A stretch of DNA of 45,892 nt. Origin: a virus. The notes beneath the pieces were generated by a model that did no database searches, was not told where the DNA came from, and saw only the letters and a list, made by a program, of their open reading frames with translations. The translations under genes were made by a program, and so were the position numbers. The DNA lies in IMG/VR virus record IMGVR_UViG_3300033153_001499, positions 1-45,892 of that record; one strand, 5' to 3'. Positions 35,801 to 42,549 of the stretch are shown in pieces; position 1 is the first letter of the stretch, and each line of letters begins with the position of its first letter.

Positions 35801-36128
35801 AGAAGGAGAAGTAAGTAAATTGTGGGCAGAAAAATTTGAAAAAGAACGAAACGCTTTAATTAAATTTAGTGAAAAAGAAAGCTTTATAAAAGCTATAACC
35901 CCCAATGGTTTAGCTAAGATTTTTGATGCAATTTCAGGGGATGCAGAATTGTTAGACCTTGTTATTAAGCGAGTTCAAGGATATGATGAAATAAAAGAAA
36001 AAGAGAAAAGAAGAGTAGATAAATTATTTGAACTAACTAAAGGTAAAAAATACATTGAAGACGAACCAAAGAAACAGACTGAGAAAGCGAACGTGTTGAA
36101 GTATGAAGACGAAAACTCGGCTTATTGA
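26892..36128 (+). CDS. Giant virion/polyvalent protein with HPD-less J-domain (3078 aa)
   Basis: A 3078-aa multidomain protein, probably ejected at infection (T7 gp16-like position). Residues ~1-60 are a small helical domain; ~60-180 a Gln/Glu/Pro linker; ~855-965 a Gly-rich, membrane-like stretch (GFLEGAALAGGSGAMNMAWK); H970-E-L-G-H974 is an HExxH motif. Residues ~1047-1099 form a J-domain lookalike (YKKLGIRPDATDQEVVDAYL, then KYEDKGG and ELHEAYTTV) without the HPD triad. Long charged coiled coils run to ~1940; a compact module follows (~1945-2100); ~2296-2850 resembles the large-polyvalent-protein domains of phages (GRTFVTQYKSSQIQAVNKQM). Its stop overlaps the convergent minus-strand gene by 7 bp. 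Confidence 0.7.
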   Translation: MNDKTLESLYKKLGLEANNVSFEDFKGALEEYPEYRDNIFTALVDAKEYTQEERGAFDDLLKKKEETSELVGNQAPTTTTLATDQSAQEAVSASSDLESSQEPQNPQDVIQDEQEVVQAQDDTELQIQQENTQENTPPPVMANATVDQPEITSATPIIENQTDMTPPAEMPDEFAPINADDLMTSKSETGLYPQTQVGFEAGNEEDGNLANKKMDYTFYQIPVSEMEPDQASRVVNYMQENGLTELEARIKNPDIFINQKQLDALEQEREETNEFLEEGVGNIINTIGDDIYNDGLEVTEGENIPSDWSTELYTAPNGSTYDNKLEFINSPEGRQLIMEEKTSIAGGDIMNFDINRHILEDAFVFSGADPEQFGYYKNEDGEWGGPRRMFDYRGLTQESSGPGLQNVFDWGSFINPETNKPYDLTKVKSYDDLSVLWDKMSLHMNDDQAQRIMQEAYNQSINSVNNKIYDYGQNYLDRADQGVSRSYKQLRNAQYDLNLIVNNLAYYEGLDDKMKFAYDSKYTEATGLSYGAYLAQQWDFQQANVETALLEYEQQRSSWYSDETELIDLKTGKLINYADADQETLDYHQNIDESALKLVRRKGNNQGFLDEHLRRSYYNLMAISSTMPDNFAEAWWEGNSYFDVAQGALLEGMVGLSAEANKLFFDDEEMYNNIKEIGNSFSKWGGTDKQTLINSSMYDKNEAPELRDMRMKKLWYLDGNSPWINTFNEALYDFQSANRAVVLNEDYIQKAKLNPENKFNMYTRDLFMSFDYPDTPGTPDDPMSFGKYGPKEAANHWSQVLQQNGVQISDEDMAFMEQTFAEKGIHMSAQMTNFLYKFALTRGMFKGVVGTTGATAAAPQGVYRWDAVTAGLAGLGQSKAYQQSVFLLSSMLQEGLIMEAYQEGFEGGEGMGFLEGAALAGGSGAMNMAWKAINKIPFMAKMPATMEKFLNSQSQVVGGMGGMYTSELVHELGHNKEWGEIVNNVFAGPDNSPGEKALLLYFMTAGIQYSKTGKEDITQFRDAIKKDIQNIYNRSYKRVPASIAANYKKLGIRPDATDQEVVDAYLKASEKYEDKGGYRDPNKMEEFMELHEAYTTVKNHRGQKSNIEQGLGEIAKQEQQDKSNQERYDHLDDLAIKTTDPRTVMLGIPTSTENLTTLPSEQRILEEMQPTFNAEEANFWANKSEVEIKDSYGYINNLVKQGEVTSLQGEHMKQQISNVREMMKGLEVIENPEAKAEAYDLSNELIQQERLLNLYQSSKVSPSQKIKQVEARIKEINSRLTEIGNNIEAPASPIEKAQNEFNRLLEEKRMIESPSFRSSNSKEYVEQMLRDINGKISAQEEKMINEFGGQFSGGGSNRVYVEEVGPSKSKTETEKGDRIKVGEQEVIEEVPENLERENPELLDAEQKSSRDQKIEEMQAEGEQARITQLKDYIKELKEKGGDEKRVQELEKELNDLESKQVEPLKTEKDADSEPEPMEVPSEEQAESVQETEEIQPDDATPGPSEVSAQPKADKTTPPKRYKDLRDSENTSGDPQLERVYGEIESEIAEKVEARDRRDRYVKDRSAMTTKQQEATDRRVNAETKEAALEYLMRSKWYENATDLQRDAAFKEVSYRFGAPKKRLNAQDRANQAVGNKGRQKFVDELQMLKDQFKIANKAGKDVRYIVDNIRKYVDRNFTSKKGGVKINWTTGDAKKLYKKLTDERAVLEKAYTNKNGDRIKKSIARLEEITKEIDQLIENKTRPTYVAWLKENTVVDNLTTESGSAQISVNKIKELRQYVDNLKKPFEEMTTTELEQTISDVQQIIKEGKDAKTLERSRKQKSQMENKGKIAKELYVEGEDFSQDVNTYEEAEAYLGSQKTDLKQPLKTLELDQEKTFKNEQGEEVSLEKGISDKRSKLRKLREEAENIEEEVIADEVVADEVVAEEPVSDEVIELEPIDPTEADFSSYDVKNAEENPALEPYINSEVESSRDMLGGPKAIQETAELGKKLDADNANVVFKRDLGIVGGRRIFEFEVEGTGEKFLMYKSKGEGTGPESKGKWVPLKYFAKDGWFVKGRVDNEGNLSMEPLTNENNPKFNKYGSETFKELAKKLEADAEAVKNENTTETKEEVATEEVAETKRTKEDVQKEIEATENEIEQLEEVLNELPTQAELDAARDRLINEARDSDAIDKIENAYEKASKRLRQEEASSSVTFDPRDGFVLVTTKDGKTYLVKSKSDLNKIDPEEFESGTGYVSKDVQISRQQQQAIQGEELKDKLKSEAEKAVKKIAKPFHGASIKTIKTLLERVGLGKPELKEATVDIYEDIVAARRNIQKLADELTTSLNEVKKENKITDKFLLKAKSKDGKSSTRNIIKHETPESSYEITNDTAVDLYMLKIAEGKYRLEQTGVDVAELDSYMDANPELKKYAEDMLDWYESTRPYFKDVFEDVTGRTFEDFNRNPDGEELRYMPIWAKGTSERPGSDLITSDNFTLGIKGGKDQNYSSSVMTDRFKQRNDRWVMSKDGRWERPEGPYQMTGANTKALDYIKEMTHTNEMWDVNQKIKGLINPQTEGKLIDMMGEENYRSLKSQLDEITGGENKYQTQVESVINKVNKAGVVYRLAFNTLNIAKQATTATHWLGAGIKDGVYPWDMVAQSGLSVTDLVGKNGKEKVNFIWDIITDPQIKNRWKKTAIDPAFEEFINKASTTKEWSVTQKRRMLGKLLTDIGMKPTQVGDMLGVLGGGIPYALAYRTKYIKDGYSKAQASEMALGKMTKLMNELQQSQEGYATTPLQRSLLGRTFVTQYKSSQIQAVNKQMQVIQEIRDSKNATTNEKAQMAYDFIYWSMFNAGFSAFATGYAADVLGLSDSDDKGEERTQHNFIEGMMSSQLQGMGMLGLVAEFGMNEFIGQDWKNNNPMIDFISDITGAVYEASTTGIGDMTEKVEKGDLLKSVIDLEIKNKIIEAAENDGWSTAIDMYDDYMFSTHGDKLEGEGEVSKLWAEKFEKERNALIKFSEKESFIKAITPNGLAKIFDAISGDAELLDLVIKRVQGYDEIKEKEKRRVDKLFELTKGKKYIEDEPKKQTEKANVLKYEDENSAY
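32631..32660 (+). repeat. Tandem 15-bp repeat in coding sequence
   Basis: Two exact adjacent copies of GCTGATGAGGTGGTT, encoding an ADEVV pair in an acidic linker of the giant protein. Likely a slippage-derived linker expansion between the coiled-coil and the following compact module. Confidence 0.8.
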
Positions 36129-36322
36129 TTTACTTTTTTAGGTTTGTCGTGAGATTTTAATACATCTTTAAGGGTTATAATTAAGGCGCCAACACTGTCG
36201 TGAAGCGCCTCAATATCTCTATCTACCAAGTCTTCGTAGATATCATCTGTTAAGCCGTTTATTTCCCTCATTAAAGAGTTTATATAAACAAGCCGCCTTA
36301 TGTCTTGTTGTGGGTCAGACAT
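36122..36322 (-). CDS. Small helical protein, 66 aa
   Basis: A 66-aa, mostly helical, charged protein (MSDPQQDIRRLVYINSLMRE, then DIEALHDSVGALIITLKDVL). It is the last gene of the leftward cluster, overlapping the preceding gene's stop by 8 bases, and its stop overlaps the convergent giant gene end. It has the look of a small regulatory or assembly subunit, but no family is recognised. A 6-bp inverted repeat (36184-36189/36205-36210) lies within it. Confidence 0.5.
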   Translation of the reverse strand: MSDPQQDIRRLVYINSLMREINGLTDDIYEDLVDRDIEALHDSVGALIITLKDVLKSHDKPKKVNQ

Positions 36323-36599
36323 CCGGGCAAGGATGATTTAGTATATTTTTTTCTTCCATAGTTATTTCATCCCACTTATATGTTGGGAGATTTCCGTAAT
36401 CATCTTCATTGGTGTAATAAGGCTCATTCTTAGTGTTAAAGAATAAGGGTATCCTTAAACTTAATTCTTCTTGAAGCATAAAAGACATATAAACTTCTCT
36501 GTAAGATACTTTATACATTTCCGCTATTTCTTCCAAGGTTTTACCTTTTACAATATGTAAATGAATACGATCTGCTTGATATTTTGTTAGTGAACCCAT
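36315..36599 (-). CDS. HTH-like small protein, 94 aa
   Basis: A 94-aa protein. The N-terminal half (LTKYQADRIHLHIVKGKTLE, then EIAEMYKVSYREVYMSFML) has the spacing of a helix-turn-helix of the sigma-70-region-4 or resolvase type: a helix, 'GKTLEEIAEMYKVSYREVY' and a recognition-type helix. The C-terminal half is polar and acidic. It overlaps both neighbouring genes by a few bases, so it belongs to the same transcript. It may be a DNA-binding regulator or a protein of DNA packaging; the binding function is inferred from the motif only. Confidence 0.5.
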   Translation of the reverse strand: MGSLTKYQADRIHLHIVKGKTLEEIAEMYKVSYREVYMSFMLQEELSLRIPLFFNTKNEPYYTNEDDYGNLPTYKWDEITMEEKNILNHPCPDV

Positions 36600-36907
36600 C
36601 TTAGTTGATTTTTCCGTAGTTTTACTTTCCTGTTTTCTAAAATTAAATCTAAATATCGATCACACGATATTGTCTCCATGAAATCTACTAAATATTCGTT
36701 TCCAGGTCGCAGTTCAAAATAAAATTCTATAAACACTGGTTCGTTAGTATCTTGCAAATGAAAGACATGTCCTAGAGACATAGGTTCAGTAAGTATGTTA
36801 TCCATTCGCTCTATCATTTGGATAATGTCTTCCCATTTTATATCTTCATAGGTTTGGAGTTGATCGATAAAATCTATTGATAATGTTATTTTAGGTATTT
36901 TTACCAT
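36587..36907 (-). CDS. Hypothetical protein, 106 aa
   Basis: A 106-aa acidic protein with a mixed helix-strand pattern (MVKIPKITLSIDFIDQLQTY; VFIEFYFELRPGNEYLVDFM) ending in a basic C-terminus (NRKVKLRKNQLRWVH). No cysteine motif, membrane helix or known domain is visible. It overlaps the VRR-NUC gene by 17 bases and the HTH-like gene by 13, so translation is likely coupled. It may be an accessory protein of the nuclease encoded just before it. Confidence 0.45.
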   Translation of the reverse strand: MVKIPKITLSIDFIDQLQTYEDIKWEDIIQMIERMDNILTEPMSLGHVFHLQDTNEPVFIEFYFELRPGNEYLVDFMETISCDRYLDLILENRKVKLRKNQLRWVH

Positions 36908-37139
36908 TGTATATTTCTGTTTTACATCCGTGTTTTTGGAGTTCTTTCAGCCTGTATTTTTGAAGCTTAGAAAGTCTTCCGGTTGGTTTTTTAATTTCTG
37001 AAAACAATACACCTGAATCTGGCGGTATCGCTATAAGGTCAGGTATACCGTGTTTGTTTGTGGTGATTAATTTAATGACATAATAGCCCTCAGCTTCTAG
37101 TTGCTTTATTCTCTTAGCTTGTATGTCTTGTTCTTTCAT
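36891..37139 (-). CDS. VRR-NUC domain nuclease
   Basis: An 82-aa protein with ATG chosen at 37139, one base after the PP-loop gene stop. VRR-NUC hallmarks of the PD-(D/E)XK superfamily are all here: P33-D34 (KHGIPDLIAIPP), E48-I-K50 (FSEIKKPTGRLSKLQ), then Q60-K-Y-R-L. VRR-NUC proteins in phages are small resolvase-like or structure-specific nucleases. An in-frame upstream ATG at 37187 would read through the PP-loop gene end and is less likely. It belongs to the leftward replication/recombination operon, so a role at branched DNA is a reasonable inference. Confidence 0.8.
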   Translation of the reverse strand: MKEQDIQAKRIKQLEAEGYYVIKLITTNKHGIPDLIAIPPDSGVLFSEIKKPTGRLSKLQKYRLKELQKHGCKTEIYNGKNT

Positions 37140-38375: not shown

Positions 38376-39611
38376 TTATATATTAAAATCGTTTCTAAAG
38401 TGTTTTAACGTATAGTCTTTTTTGCTATTTACAGCTTTATATATATTGTCCTCAATCCCATCTTCTGCAAAAATCCAATATATTTTATTGTGTGTTCTGT
38501 CTTTAGTTGTCATACGATCTCTACTTTGCCAATAGCTAGTGGCACTAAAGTCTATATTGTAATATACTAAATACTTAGCATTTCGTAAAGAAATACCTTC
38601 TCGTCCACTTACAATTTGAAGGGCAATATTTTTATCTCCTTCATTAAACTCTTCTATTTCGGTAGTTAAATCATCTCCAAACACTTCTTTCAAAGCCTCT
38701 AATTCTGCCTTGAATTTGTAAAATATTCCTATCTTTTTACCTTCAAATCTTTTTTTAATAAACAGTGCCTTGGATAAATCTAAAACCTGTTTTTTACCTG
38801 ACTCAAAAATAACAGTACCTGAAAACATTTGATGAAGCTTTCCCATCAACTTAACACCAGTGTCGGCTAAGATGATCTCATTTTCCCCCTCAATAACTTT
38901 ATCTCTTCGTAATGTACTACACAACTGATAAGTAGTAGAACTCATTGGAACGTGAAGTATCTCTTCATCTATATTAGATTTAAACCCCGCTTCTTTCTGA
39001 GTAAAGTTAATAGTGTAAGGCTTCATGTCTTTGATTATCTTAACCTCGACAGCTCTAGAGTAATCTGTTACCGTATGGGTTCCTAAATACTTTACCCTTT
39101 TGTTTACGTAATCATCAGCCCATCTATAAAAGTTCTTGTATTGCTTGAAGGGGTTATTGGGGTGTCCATAAACCTGGTGATACATTTGAGAAAAACTCTC
39201 TGGTGTAGGTGTTCCTGACATTAAAATTAATTTAGATTTCCATATAGCTAAATCATTCTTTAATTGTTTAGCCCGCTTAGATGGAGTAGCGAAAGCCCCT
39301 AGTGAGTGGGCTTCGTCTGCAATAATTACATCAGGATAAAATCCTAGTCCTATTTTATGGACACTTTCATAATTAATAACCTCTAATTCAAAGGAGGGTT
39401 TAAGTAATTTATAGTCTGACACAATACTACTAATAGCTTTTTTCTTAGTAATAAATAAGACTCGTTGAGCTTTAATCTTTTGGCAAATTCCTAGTGAGGT
39501 AAGGGTTTTGCCTGTTCTTACCTCCATCGCTAAATATAGCAATCCGTTTTTAAGTATAATATCTGTTCCTTGTTTTATAATTTCATTTTGGTAATCTCTA
39601 AACTTAATCAT
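38376..39611 (-). CDS. SF2 DNA helicase (DEAH-box, SNF2-like)
   Basis: A 411-aa superfamily 2 helicase. Motif I M29-EVRTGKT36, motif II D99-E-A-H102 (VIIADEAHSLG), motif III S132-GTPTP, and motif VI (SATSYWQSRDR) near the end of the second RecA-like lobe are all visible. A Q-like start (KFRDYQNEIIKQGTD) precedes motif I. Phage SF2 proteins of this size remodel replication or recombination intermediates. It overlaps the primase-helicase gene by 8 bases and precedes the HhH gene by 4. No nuclease domain is attached. Confidence 0.9.
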   Translation of the reverse strand: MIKFRDYQNEIIKQGTDIILKNGLLYLAMEVRTGKTLTSLGICQKIKAQRVLFITKKKAISSIVSDYKLLKPSFELEVINYESVHKIGLGFYPDVIIADEAHSLGAFATPSKRAKQLKNDLAIWKSKLILMSGTPTPESFSQMYHQVYGHPNNPFKQYKNFYRWADDYVNKRVKYLGTHTVTDYSRAVEVKIIKDMKPYTINFTQKEAGFKSNIDEEILHVPMSSTTYQLCSTLRRDKVIEGENEIILADTGVKLMGKLHQMFSGTVIFESGKKQVLDLSKALFIKKRFEGKKIGIFYKFKAELEALKEVFGDDLTTEIEEFNEGDKNIALQIVSGREGISLRNAKYLVYYNIDFSATSYWQSRDRMTTKDRTHNKIYWIFAEDGIEDNIYKAVNSKKDYTLKHFRNDFNI

Positions 39612-41982
39612 CTAAATTTAATTTTACTTGCTTTATTGGTTCTCTAAATATAAAATATATACCCTCTGTCCTTCTTCCTTCCCTAACCTTTTGACCAGTT
39701 AAGTAGTTTCCAGCTAATCTCATCCACTTGTTCCAAGCACTGTGAGACATCTTGTTGAAGTCAGGGTTCTGTAGTACAAACTCTAACCTTAATACATTAC
39801 TTATTATTTCTGTTTCATAAGGCACAAGGTGTTGGTTTTCGTATAAAAACTGTACAAACTCTCTGCATGTCTCAGCTTCAAACTTTCTATCTTTAAGGTT
39901 CTTGAATGGAGCTGTAATGAATCCAGTCTTTAAATAGTTTTTAAGGCAGTTAACCATATAGTTATCAAACTTACACCACTCATCATCTCCCCATTCTGAA
40001 AAGAATAGTCTTTTAAATTCATCATAAGGGGTGTATGTCTTAGAGTAATGAGCAAAAAATTCTAACTCCCACTTTCTTCTTTCGTATGAATTCCCCTTAC
40101 CTTTAATAGCGTAGTTTGTTGTGATCACTACTTTGGGGGAAGAATGAAATGGAATCTTAATAGCGTCTTTGTTTTTCTTTTCTAATGTTATTCCTTCTGT
40201 TATAACACTAAACAATCTTTCAAACTCAAAGTTCTTTTTAACATCATCAAACGTAAGTATTTGAGTGTCAGCAGATACTAATTGATATGCAAAGGATCTT
40301 TCAAAGTAAAAAGCCTTCCCATCTATAGTAACCATTTTCTTTAATTGGGCCACACCTTGAACGAAGAGACCTTTTCCAGTACCACCCTCGGGGTCGTCTG
40401 ATATCACCTCATCATTAATAATTATAGCTGGACAATACCCCATGTTCTTATAACCGTGAAGTAAAAATCCTATGGTGCTTTCTACAGCTTTTATACGTTG
40501 TGAATTGTCTTCGCTTATGTTGTGGATAAACTTCTTATAATCACAATCTGTATCATCACACACATAAAAGTTTCTATTTATTACCTGGTCTTTCCAAACA
40601 TATCCATCTAAGTCGTCATATTCAATCTCATCAATTCCGTTCTTGGTTATTCGAATGGCTACATTATCAAAATATATATAAGCTTCTTTTGCTGTGTCTT
40701 TCTTAAACGACACCTCACTATAATTTAAAAGCGATAAGAAATCTTCTTTAAAGTATCTAGTCTTGTCTGCGAAATGATTGTATATAGATAAGTCTTCAAG
40801 GTTAGCTAAGTAATTCAACACATAATCTTTCATCTTATCCTCAGTGGTGTTGTCTATACGGTTAGACTTTATATGTATGAAAACATAATTATTACTCCCC
40901 GGTGGTTGATATTTAAAGAATCCGTGATCTTGTAAAAACTCTTTAAACTTAAATGGTATAATTCTAACCACTCCCTTTTCTGACCTTACCCAAAAGTCTT
41001 TCTTCTCAATTGACTCTTCTTCTTTCTTAATTACTAAATCAACCTCTTCGCTCTCAAACCCAGAGTCTCTTAATTTAGAGCGAATTTCCTTTTTTGGTAC
41101 ACCACACTTTAGTTGGTACCTAACCTGGTCTACCGAGTTAGTGTCTTCAAAATACTTAGTATTAAAATTAGATGAGTTTTTATAAGCGCTATTAATGGTG
41201 GTATTCATTTCTTTCTGTGAAAACCCATTACCAATATACTCCCCCATCACATAGGTAGCAAAACTCTTATCAACACCGAAGTCGTTTAAGGCGGCAGCTA
41301 ATATGTATATGTTGTTATTTCTTTCCCCTTCAACCATGCCATACTTAGCCTCCCACCATTTTTTTAGTCGGGACACAATTACATCTTGTTCTTTTATTAT
41401 TAAAGTAGGAGGATCTATAGAATATTCATATTGCTCATAACTAACAGTCTCCATACTGGTATAGGTCTCACTGTCATTGTTGTAATATAAATTAGGGTCA
41501 TAACTTTCATAACACACCCTTGATATGTTTTTAGATGTGGGGTCAAACTCATCACAATGATAATAATCTTGTAAAGAGAGAAAATATTTTTTATGATTAT
41601 CAGGGTCTTCTGGAATAGCTACTAATACCTTTAATCCATTACCACTAGGAGAAGTAAATACAGCTCTAGTGTATTTATCTTTTTCTATTTCTAATCTTTT
41701 TTGTTTTAAGCTTTTTTTAGTTTTAAACCCATCAAAGTCTAAACAAATCAAACCGCTATGCTCGATAATTGCTTTATCCTCTCGCTTGTTAAATTTTCCT
41801 GAAAAACATATAGCTGGAAGCTGTTGCTTTAATAACGATCTTGACTCTTTATCTTTTTCTTTTCTAATATTTTCAACTAAATCTTGAGAATTACCTTCCT
41901 TTATTCTTAATAATATTACTTCCAAACTCCTATAAAAAGGAACAGAAGTATCACGAATACTCTTAAATATGGTTATAAGCAT
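39604..41982 (-). CDS. Primase-helicase (VirE-N/BT4734-like primase plus DUF5906/SF3-type helicase)
   Basis: A 792-aa replication protein. The N-terminal region (~50-160) is BT4734/VirE-N-like primase-polymerase: ICLDFDG (D82, D84) and S111-PSGNGLK. A PriCT-like helical segment follows (~215-275, EGERNNNIYILAAALNDFGV). The C-terminal helicase has a P-loop G533-GTGKG538, Walker B (QILTFDDV, D579/D580) and a sensor-type Asn (VVITTNYAIKG), as in the D5/NrS-1-type DUF5906 ATPase. It would prime and unwind at the origin, while a polymerase is not seen in this window. The gene follows the iteron-containing region. Confidence 0.85.
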   Translation of the reverse strand: MLITIFKSIRDTSVPFYRSLEVILLRIKEGNSQDLVENIRKEKDKESRSLLKQQLPAICFSGKFNKREDKAIIEHSGLICLDFDGFKTKKSLKQKRLEIEKDKYTRAVFTSPSGNGLKVLVAIPEDPDNHKKYFLSLQDYYHCDEFDPTSKNISRVCYESYDPNLYYNNDSETYTSMETVSYEQYEYSIDPPTLIIKEQDVIVSRLKKWWEAKYGMVEGERNNNIYILAAALNDFGVDKSFATYVMGEYIGNGFSQKEMNTTINSAYKNSSNFNTKYFEDTNSVDQVRYQLKCGVPKKEIRSKLRDSGFESEEVDLVIKKEEESIEKKDFWVRSEKGVVRIIPFKFKEFLQDHGFFKYQPPGSNNYVFIHIKSNRIDNTTEDKMKDYVLNYLANLEDLSIYNHFADKTRYFKEDFLSLLNYSEVSFKKDTAKEAYIYFDNVAIRITKNGIDEIEYDDLDGYVWKDQVINRNFYVCDDTDCDYKKFIHNISEDNSQRIKAVESTIGFLLHGYKNMGYCPAIIINDEVISDDPEGGTGKGLFVQGVAQLKKMVTIDGKAFYFERSFAYQLVSADTQILTFDDVKKNFEFERLFSVITEGITLEKKNKDAIKIPFHSSPKVVITTNYAIKGKGNSYERRKWELEFFAHYSKTYTPYDEFKRLFFSEWGDDEWCKFDNYMVNCLKNYLKTGFITAPFKNLKDRKFEAETCREFVQFLYENQHLVPYETEIISNVLRLEFVLQNPDFNKMSHSAWNKWMRLAGNYLTGQKVREGRRTEGIYFIFREPIKQVKLNLDD

Positions 41983-42160
41983 GTTACTTTTTAATGATTT
42001 ATGTTGGTTTTATGTTGGTTTTTTAGACCTAACTAACTAGTTCTTAGATACTTATGTTATAATGTTGGTTTTTACGCACACACACACAAGAAGTAAATAT
42101 AATATTAATAATAAATATTATTTGTATATGGCGAAAATTCTTAACATTTCAACATATAAA
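41983..42160. other. Candidate replication origin or control region with iterons
   Basis: An AT-rich intergenic stretch just upstream of the primase-helicase start. It holds three exact ATGTTGGTTTT copies (42001, 42012 and 42062; AAAACCAACAT on the minus strand), an AACTAGTT palindrome (42035-42042), a (CA)6 tract (42077-42088) and a highly A/T segment (about 42094-42125). This mix of repeats and easily melted DNA is typical of origins or of autoregulated replication promoters. No good -7 box on the minus strand could be found in it. Confidence 0.5.
42001..42073 (-). repeat. Three AAAACCAACAT iterons
   Basis: Direct repeats ATGTTGGTTTT at 42001-42011, 42012-42022 and 42062-42072 (plus-strand reading). 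The first two are exactly adjacent and the third is 50 bases away (about five helical turns). They may be binding sites for the primase-helicase or the DnaA-like protein. Confidence 0.65.
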
Positions 42161-42229
42161 AAAGAGAGAAGTATGACAGGCAAACAAAAGCTAACCCTGC
42201 GTGGACCTCGCGGCAACCACCTTCTCTCT
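42154..42229 (-). ncRNA. Structured three-way-junction RNA/terminator candidate
   Basis: On the minus strand, directly after the SSB-like gene, AGAGAGAAG (42229-42221) pairs with CTTCTCTCT (42171-42163), 9 bp perfect, followed by a U6 run. The 49 bases inside can form two arms: GUGG-UU-GCC-[GCGA]-GGU-CCAC, with a GNRA tetraloop and two-base bulge, and CAGG...CCUG around a UUUU-containing loop. Together these give a three-way junction closed by P1. The GC-rich arms stand out from the AT-rich surroundings. The closing helix plus U-tract can act as a terminator, and the arms could make it ligand- or protein-responsive. I recognise no known riboswitch or ribozyme family. Confidence 0.55.
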
Positions 42230-42249
42230 AATATATACATTCTATTTAT

Positions 42250-42549
42250 TTAGAACGGCAAATCCGCTGGATCCTCATCTTCAAAGCTTTCTTGTGCTTC
42301 ACCAACAGCGGGTTGTGGTTCAGGCGTAACTTCTTGTTTCTTAGGTTCCCAAGTGTTTAATTCACAATATAGCCCACCCTTTTTTGATAACTTAACAGTT
42401 ACTCTACACTTGCCATTAGGCTTCATGTGTTGTTTTAAAAAGACGATTGCATCTTCTACATTAAATTCGATATCACCTATAATAAATTCAGGTGCGTTTT
42501 CATTTTGGTAAAAATTAATACCGTTTGCAAAAATTTTCTCTGTACTCAT
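42250..42549 (-). CDS. Single-stranded DNA-binding-like protein
   Basis: A 99-aa protein with a beta-rich body (RVTVKLSKKGGLYCELNTWE) followed by a Pro/Glu linker and a highly acidic end, EDEDPADLPF (residues 90-99). The acidic DLPF tip is the partner-binding signature of bacterial and phage SSBs (compare DDDIPF). The gene follows the exonuclease gene (20 bases) in the recombination cluster. It would coat ssDNA made by the exonuclease or replication helicase and recruit partners through the tail. The OB-fold itself is not clear from sequence, so the family is not certain. Confidence 0.65.
   Translation of the reverse strand: MSTEKIFANGINFYQNENAPEFIIGDIEFNVEDAIVFLKQHMKPNGKCRVTVKLSKKGGLYCELNTWEPKKQEVTPEPQPAVGEAQESFEDEDPADLPF

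Follow-up and report, generated by a model that had tools for sequence, protein, structure and literature searches.

What kind of RNA occupies the gap between an SSB-like gene and a primase-helicase gene in an uncultivated virus, when it has the stem and U-tract of an intrinsic terminator and two further arms where a short loop would be expected? The preliminary description of the 45,892-nt stretch analysed here (the window, meaning the whole of this DNA at its full length) had placed a three-way-junction RNA at this site and offered four readings of it, namely a terminator into which regulatory arms had been inserted, a riboswitch-like switch of the primase-helicase, a small RNA and a replication primer RNA. 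The first of these is the best supported, and the element is likely the intrinsic terminator of a minus-strand exonuclease/Sak annealase/SSB-like transcript, with a conserved three-way-junction domain in its loop.

Layout and predicted folding of the element

All elements of the proposed three-way junction are present on the minus strand (Table 1), where the RNA reads AGAGAGAAG GUGG UU GCC GCGA GGU CCAC GCAGG GUUAGCUUUUGUUUG CCUGU CAUA CUUCUCUCU UUUUU. It lies 20 nt past the stop codon of the SSB-like gene and about 175 nt ahead of the start of the primase-helicase gene, both of which are transcribed from the minus strand, and it occurs once in the 45,892-base record, with no second copy found there. 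P1 consists of nine perfect pairs, four of them G-C, and continues into six U residues as described, the first U doubling as part of the last P1 pair. The P2 arm with its GNRA tetraloop was also found as described, while the CAGG/CCUG arm is present but one G.U pair longer than had been stated (GCAGG/CCUGU). The tetraloop is GCGA in the window and GUGA in every other member of the family, and the distal mini-hairpin of P3 takes the forms AAC-UUUU-GUU in L003 and L396 and GGC-UUUU-GUC in L002 (loci in related phages, see below), being predicted by folding in the window, L003 and L396, and by sequence only in L002.

Table 1. Coordinates of the genes and RNA parts in the window
Feature	Position	Strand	Remarks
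SSB-like gene	42250..42549	-	99 aa; acidic C-terminus DLPF; the three-way-junction RNA is its 3' UTR
Whole three-way-junction RNA with U-tract (probable decorated intrinsic terminator)	42158..42229	-	Fold z = -3.7; covariance-model members L002, L003, L004, L396, L425
P1 5' arm AGAGAGAAG	42221..42229	-	Pairs with 42163-42171; fold; outermost A-U pair not conserved
P2 arm	42201..42220	-	GUGG/CCAC outer stem, 5' UU bulge, GYC/GGY inner stem, GNRA tetraloop
P2 outer stem GUGG/CCAC	42217-42220 with 42201-42204	-	
P2 bulge UU	42215-42216	-	UW across the family
P2 inner stem and loop GCC-GCGA-GGU	42205-42214	-	
P3 arm GCAGG/CCUGU with distal mini-hairpin AGC-UUUU-GUU	42176..42200	-	Two double-changed pairs; fold predictions
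P3 stem GCAGG/CCUGU	42196-42200 with 42176-42180	-	
J31 linker CAUA	42172..42175	-	With the preceding GU forms GUCAUA, invariant in five close members
P1 3' arm CUUCUCUCU	42163..42171	-	Sequence, fold, covariation
U-tract after P1, predicted RNA 3' end	42158..42162	-	Kept in all members; with the last P1 position, U6 = 42158-42163
Primase-helicase gene, downstream	39604..41982	-	BT4734-like_N, DUF5906; PHROG primase/helicase

For a 101-nt region, the minimum free energy (MFE) fold is exactly this three-way junction (-30.8 kcal/mol, z = -3.7), and none of 200 shuffled sequences folded as well. The antisense strand folds worse (z = -2.67; alifold -26.3 sense vs. -17.8 antisense). A 9-bp stem followed by a T-run is by itself not far above chance, at about 0.3 occurrences per shuffled window (10 shuffles), a doubt that is removed by the conservation of the element in relatives. 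P1 is predicted to pair with a mean probability of 0.94 or higher throughout the family. The MFE program favors another interior fold for L002, the mean pair probability of the three-way junction being near 0.35 for P2 and P3, and in L004 one P2 pair is broken and the outer P2 stem is not predicted to form; hence, the inner fold probably needs tertiary or bound interactions, or else the energy model errs. For the window and L396, P2 and P3 are predicted to fold before the 3' arm of P1 has been transcribed. No conserved alternative (antiterminated) fold that opens P1 was seen in MFE, pair-probability or nascent folds, all of which were modeled ligand-free.

The SSB-like protein matched no Pfam or PHROG family, and its predicted structure was unreliable (pLDDT 56) and too poor for a fold search, so that the label rests on the DLPF tail and the gene neighborhood.

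Relatives and compensatory changes

A primase scan of IMG/VR identified L002, L003, and L004 at 82-83% identity, the next relatives lying at 69% and below, and all three have the same RNA upstream of the primase gene. It sits between SSB-like and primase genes in L002 and L003, and also in L396, which was found with covariance model R2 in a scan with the neighboring helicase gene (E = 8.5e-20); the contig of L004 ends before the SSB gene. A diverged copy lies at the syntenic spot of L425, directly after its SSB-like gene, and was matched by R2 (E = 4e-4), from the building of which L425 had been left out. This copy folds unaided into a three-way junction (z = -3.3) and retains the P2 core UAGUCGUGAGA, with differing stems and a shorter P3. 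The RNA directly follows the SSB stop codon in the window, L002 and L425, and is found about 155 and 80 nt past it, behind another hairpin, in L003 and L396, respectively. In L003 (365-441) and L396 (199-267), the SSB stop is separated from the three-way junction by a second stem, GAGCUGRCU/AGUCAGCUC, which encloses a conserved UUGUUAGAUGGAYAGGGGU, is missing in the window and L002, and lies in a region that folds with z = -4.8 in L396.

Covariation was assessed on five close members (the window, L002, L003, L004, and L396, with L003 and L004 nearly identical) and the diverged L425. RNAalifold returned the structure of the preliminary description unaided from the five close members, in which 99 of 100 base-pair cells are intact, the sole break being in L004. 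Compensatory double changes affect six of the 20 pairs (three in P1, one in the outer P2 stem and two in P3), while the inner P2 stem shows one-sided variation only; 20,000 random re-pairings of the same columns gave at most four double-changed pairs, with a mean of 0.5. The P1 changes fall in three of its eight conserved pairs, the outer P2 stem carries a G-C to A-U double change in L396, and the P2 arm of L425 shows C-G, U-A and A-U exchanges. Adding L425 raises the counts to 10 of 20 double-changed pairs and 119 of 120 paired cells (slid-partner controls that include L425: 48-64% paired, at most one double-changed pair), although these counts lean towards structure because the model guided the alignment. 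G.U pairs, whose counterparts on the opposite strand would be A-C mismatches, occupy 12 of the 100 cells, which points to the minus strand as the functional one. The element is non-coding, since differences in spacer length are not multiples of three and every reading frame is closed in at least one member. Conservation is higher in the RNA than in the rest of the gap (0.74, 0.69 and 0.85 vs. 0.59, 0.62 and 0.72).

Judged from this comparison, the shape of the RNA is kept by selection, with compensatory changes in all three helices, in agreement with the selection on RNA structure that had been proposed; a lack of compensatory changes in related phages, which the preliminary description had named as evidence against its view, was not encountered. 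The covariation support for an undescribed structured RNA is thus strong, despite the few sequences. The claim that the RNA belongs to no known family also held when compared with Rfam, as the covariance models of Rfam 15 gave no match in the window at the gathering threshold, chance matches only on the 281-nt region at E up to 10, and none on six loci at E up to 0.5, while self-cleaving three-way-junction ribozymes (hammerhead and others) gave no sense-strand match at E up to 10. An antisense match to the Hairpin ribozyme (E = 9) is not kept in L002 and was dismissed as chance. The element is an undescribed RNA motif, and the few phages in which it has been found to date are all uncultivated and probably infect Bacteroidetes, a host deduced from related primases in phages of Flavobacterium, Cellulophaga, Nonlabens and Bacteroides.

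In pattern searches, a 22-nt degenerate pattern recovered the contigs of L002, L003 and L004, as well as L153, which was rejected because the match lies inside protein-coding DNA. An exact P2-loop pattern in IMG/VR gave 70 stretches, none of which had the rest of the motif on inspection, and searches of viral and genome collections with gapped patterns turned up many stretches by chance, the best of which reached an R2 E of about 0.55. From a pattern based on L425 came ten stretches, and only L425's own contig scored with the model. Covariance model R3 matched none of 395 genomes from the class of G119 (under strict filters and with no positive control), and blastn against phage or plasmid records returned only short chance matches.

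Terminators at the corresponding site of other phages

Ordinary terminators occur at the same spot in relatives, with loops of typically 4-6 nt and about 120-210 nt upstream of the primase gene. Among 96 distinct post-SSB stretches, the loop was 9 nt or shorter in 51, 10-20 nt in nine and longer than 20 nt in 14, some of these long-loop picks, including that of L425, being spurious; 22 stretches gave no terminator under the criteria used. In a control on terminators elsewhere, many of the "other" matches were again post-SSB terminators. The covariance search matches plain terminators through P1 and the U-tract only, hence P1 and the U-tract would constitute the terminator and P2 and P3 an insert in its loop, and with some 50 more distant relatives having an ordinary short-loop terminator here, an operon terminator with an inserted domain is the best reading. 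The terminator character noted in the preliminary description is therefore well founded, since, as in an intrinsic terminator, a perfect stem is followed immediately by a U-tract on the coding strand, after the stop codon and downstream of the operon end, with the U-tract adjoining P1 in every member and plain terminators syntenic in relatives. In contrast to a typical G+C-rich stem with a short loop, P1 has four G-C pairs out of nine and its 49-nt loop is a conserved two-arm domain under sequence constraint, for which the inner arms would compensate. On the sequences compared, the RNA structure is conserved, belongs to the minus strand and is syntenic with plain terminators.

We infer from this that transcription terminates at the U-tract in vivo. 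As the RNA is made, P2, GNRA-capped and UW-bulged, and P3 would be the first to fold and would bridge the roughly 50 nt that lie between the two P1 strands, and P1 and the U-tract would then halt RNA polymerase. A phage terminator between an SSB-like gene and primase can, it appears, acquire a conserved domain of several helices where related phages retain a plain hairpin, which offers a clean natural comparison of what such an insert adds to a terminator. The insert was probably gained within the lineage, because the next primase relatives, L005 and L006 (about 65-69% identical), have unrelated decorated hairpins at this site.

Large post-SSB terminator inserts unrelated to the present one are found in L005 (3922-3990), L006 and L397, L414 (3275-3345) and L448, and that of L005 is also a predicted three-way junction (z = -3.9). 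The hexamer GUCAUA is common to the short post-SSB terminator loops of L019, L383, L362 and L350, and L384 has two tandem post-SSB hairpins, the extra one with UGUCAUA. Conserved terminator loops are unusual, and GUCAUA in plain loops would fit descent from such a terminator, short as the hexamer is. Upstream of the primase genes of L046, L070 and L071, a UUCG terminator is followed by conserved GACGCGRRTGTCGTTTTTSGTT...CTACTCTCTCTTTTACTTT, possibly a double or decorated terminator.

Possible roles of the inner domain

Sequence conservation in the inner domain exceeds the demands of termination, so that the domain probably binds something or sets 3'-end stability; with less confidence than termination itself, its nucleotides may be assigned to a tertiary fold or to a protein or ligand site that tunes read-through towards primase or shields the SSB mRNA at its 3' end. 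A regulated terminator is a tentative possibility, in which a ligand or protein (e.g., a phage replication protein) at an embedded putative aptamer or protein site would alter read-through from the SSB operon into the co-directional primase gene. Conservation inside the terminator extends past base pairing to nucleotides that play no part in termination (the UW bulge, GNRA, GUCAUA and C-UUUU-G), as in a terminator-embedded aptamer, and the HMP-PP (thiS) riboswitch, an aptamer with conserved nucleotides within an otherwise classic terminator hairpin, proves this design and is its best-known parallel (PMC6478431). However, the HMP-PP riboswitch is an extended hairpin with a pseudoknot at thiamin genes, whereas the phage RNA is a three-way junction in an SSB/primase context, with a tiny distribution and no alternative ON fold found. 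P1 is predicted to stay firmly paired in all members with no conserved pairing seen that would open it, a plain terminator serves the same gene pair in most relatives, and the primase gene is preceded by some 175 nt of gap that carries conserved, iteron-like repeats. These points, and the lack of the insert in the closest relatives outside the clade, speak against the riboswitch for the primase-helicase that had been suggested. A phage sensor in the terminator, by which a metabolite or a phage or host protein would permit or block read-through out of the recombination/SSB operon and into the primase-helicase gene and so time replication, is unlikely. Regulation, if present, would make the element a compact switch of phage transcription.

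The fold might instead act on the finished transcript, blocking 3' exonucleases or recruiting or repelling an RNase as a stabilizer or retroregulator of the SSB mRNA, which we consider possible at a similarly tentative level. It is compact, stable and GNRA-capped, and directly follows the SSB stop codon in three members, but a plain hairpin, as in most relatives, would already block exonucleases, and in L003 and L396 the RNA lies well past the stop and behind another hairpin. In phage lambda, the sib/tI retroregulator is a terminator-region structure directly downstream of the recombination gene int with a role in 3'-end stability, a likeness in position to the present RNA; the lambda system involves an RNase III step and a read-through extension, and the present RNA differs from it in structure. 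Structured 3'-UTR RNAs are also known from the L17 downstream element (RF01708), which shares the 3'-UTR position, GNRA loops and strand-specific G-U pairs but has another host, gene, sequence and structure (PMC2864571). The STAXI motif (RF01728), likewise a structured motif near SSB and other DNA-handling genes, consists of tandem pseudoknots in Enterobacteriales (PMC2864571), unlike the single nested three-way junction of the phage RNA, which matches neither Rfam family. On these comparisons, a function in 3'-end stability like that of lambda sib and an aptamer-like design seem about equally plausible.

That the insert has no partner at all, its arms serving only to keep the P1 strands near each other so that the terminator works despite 50 inserted nucleotides, is slightly less likely. 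The unrelated decorated terminators at the same site in L005, L006, L397, L414 and L448 indicate that decoration as such recurs with different sequences; however, sequence identity in the arms exceeds the needs of pairing, with GUCAUA invariant and the bulge and GNRA core still recognizable in L425. It is very improbable that the element has a promoter of its own and yields a free small RNA or a replication primer. In the window, a weak Bacteroidetes-like -33/-7 match does end at P1, and AT-rich, iteron-bearing DNA follows the U-tract, but this match is not kept in L002, L003, L396, and L425, the SSB stop codon is just 11-20 nt upstream in two members, with no conserved promoter between it and P1, and plain terminators are found in relatives that share the iteron layout. 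The independent small RNA is thus disfavored, and the proposed primer gained no positive support.

The window contains 13 copies of ACAAAAG, the complement of the conserved C-UUUU-GU loop, which on a brief look made no case for the loop as a base-pairing seed. The stretch between the U-tract and the primase gene (41983-42157, minus strand) is origin- or operator-like, with an inverted pair AATGTTGAAATGTTA just past the U-tract, an AT-rich tract and a conserved TGTGTGTGYGCGTAA, followed by direct AACAT repeats (CCAACATTATAACATAA, AACATAAAACCAACATAAA, GTAACATG). This layout is preserved in L002, L003 and L396, and further relatives have a similar one with other repeat words (L017 TTGTCACAAA, L019 CGACAYAAAA, L020 TTGTACAC). 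On a larger scale, the GC skew of the window flips sign at about 36000-37000 and the listed genes from ~37 kb on are mostly on the minus strand, which probably marks a change of transcription direction.
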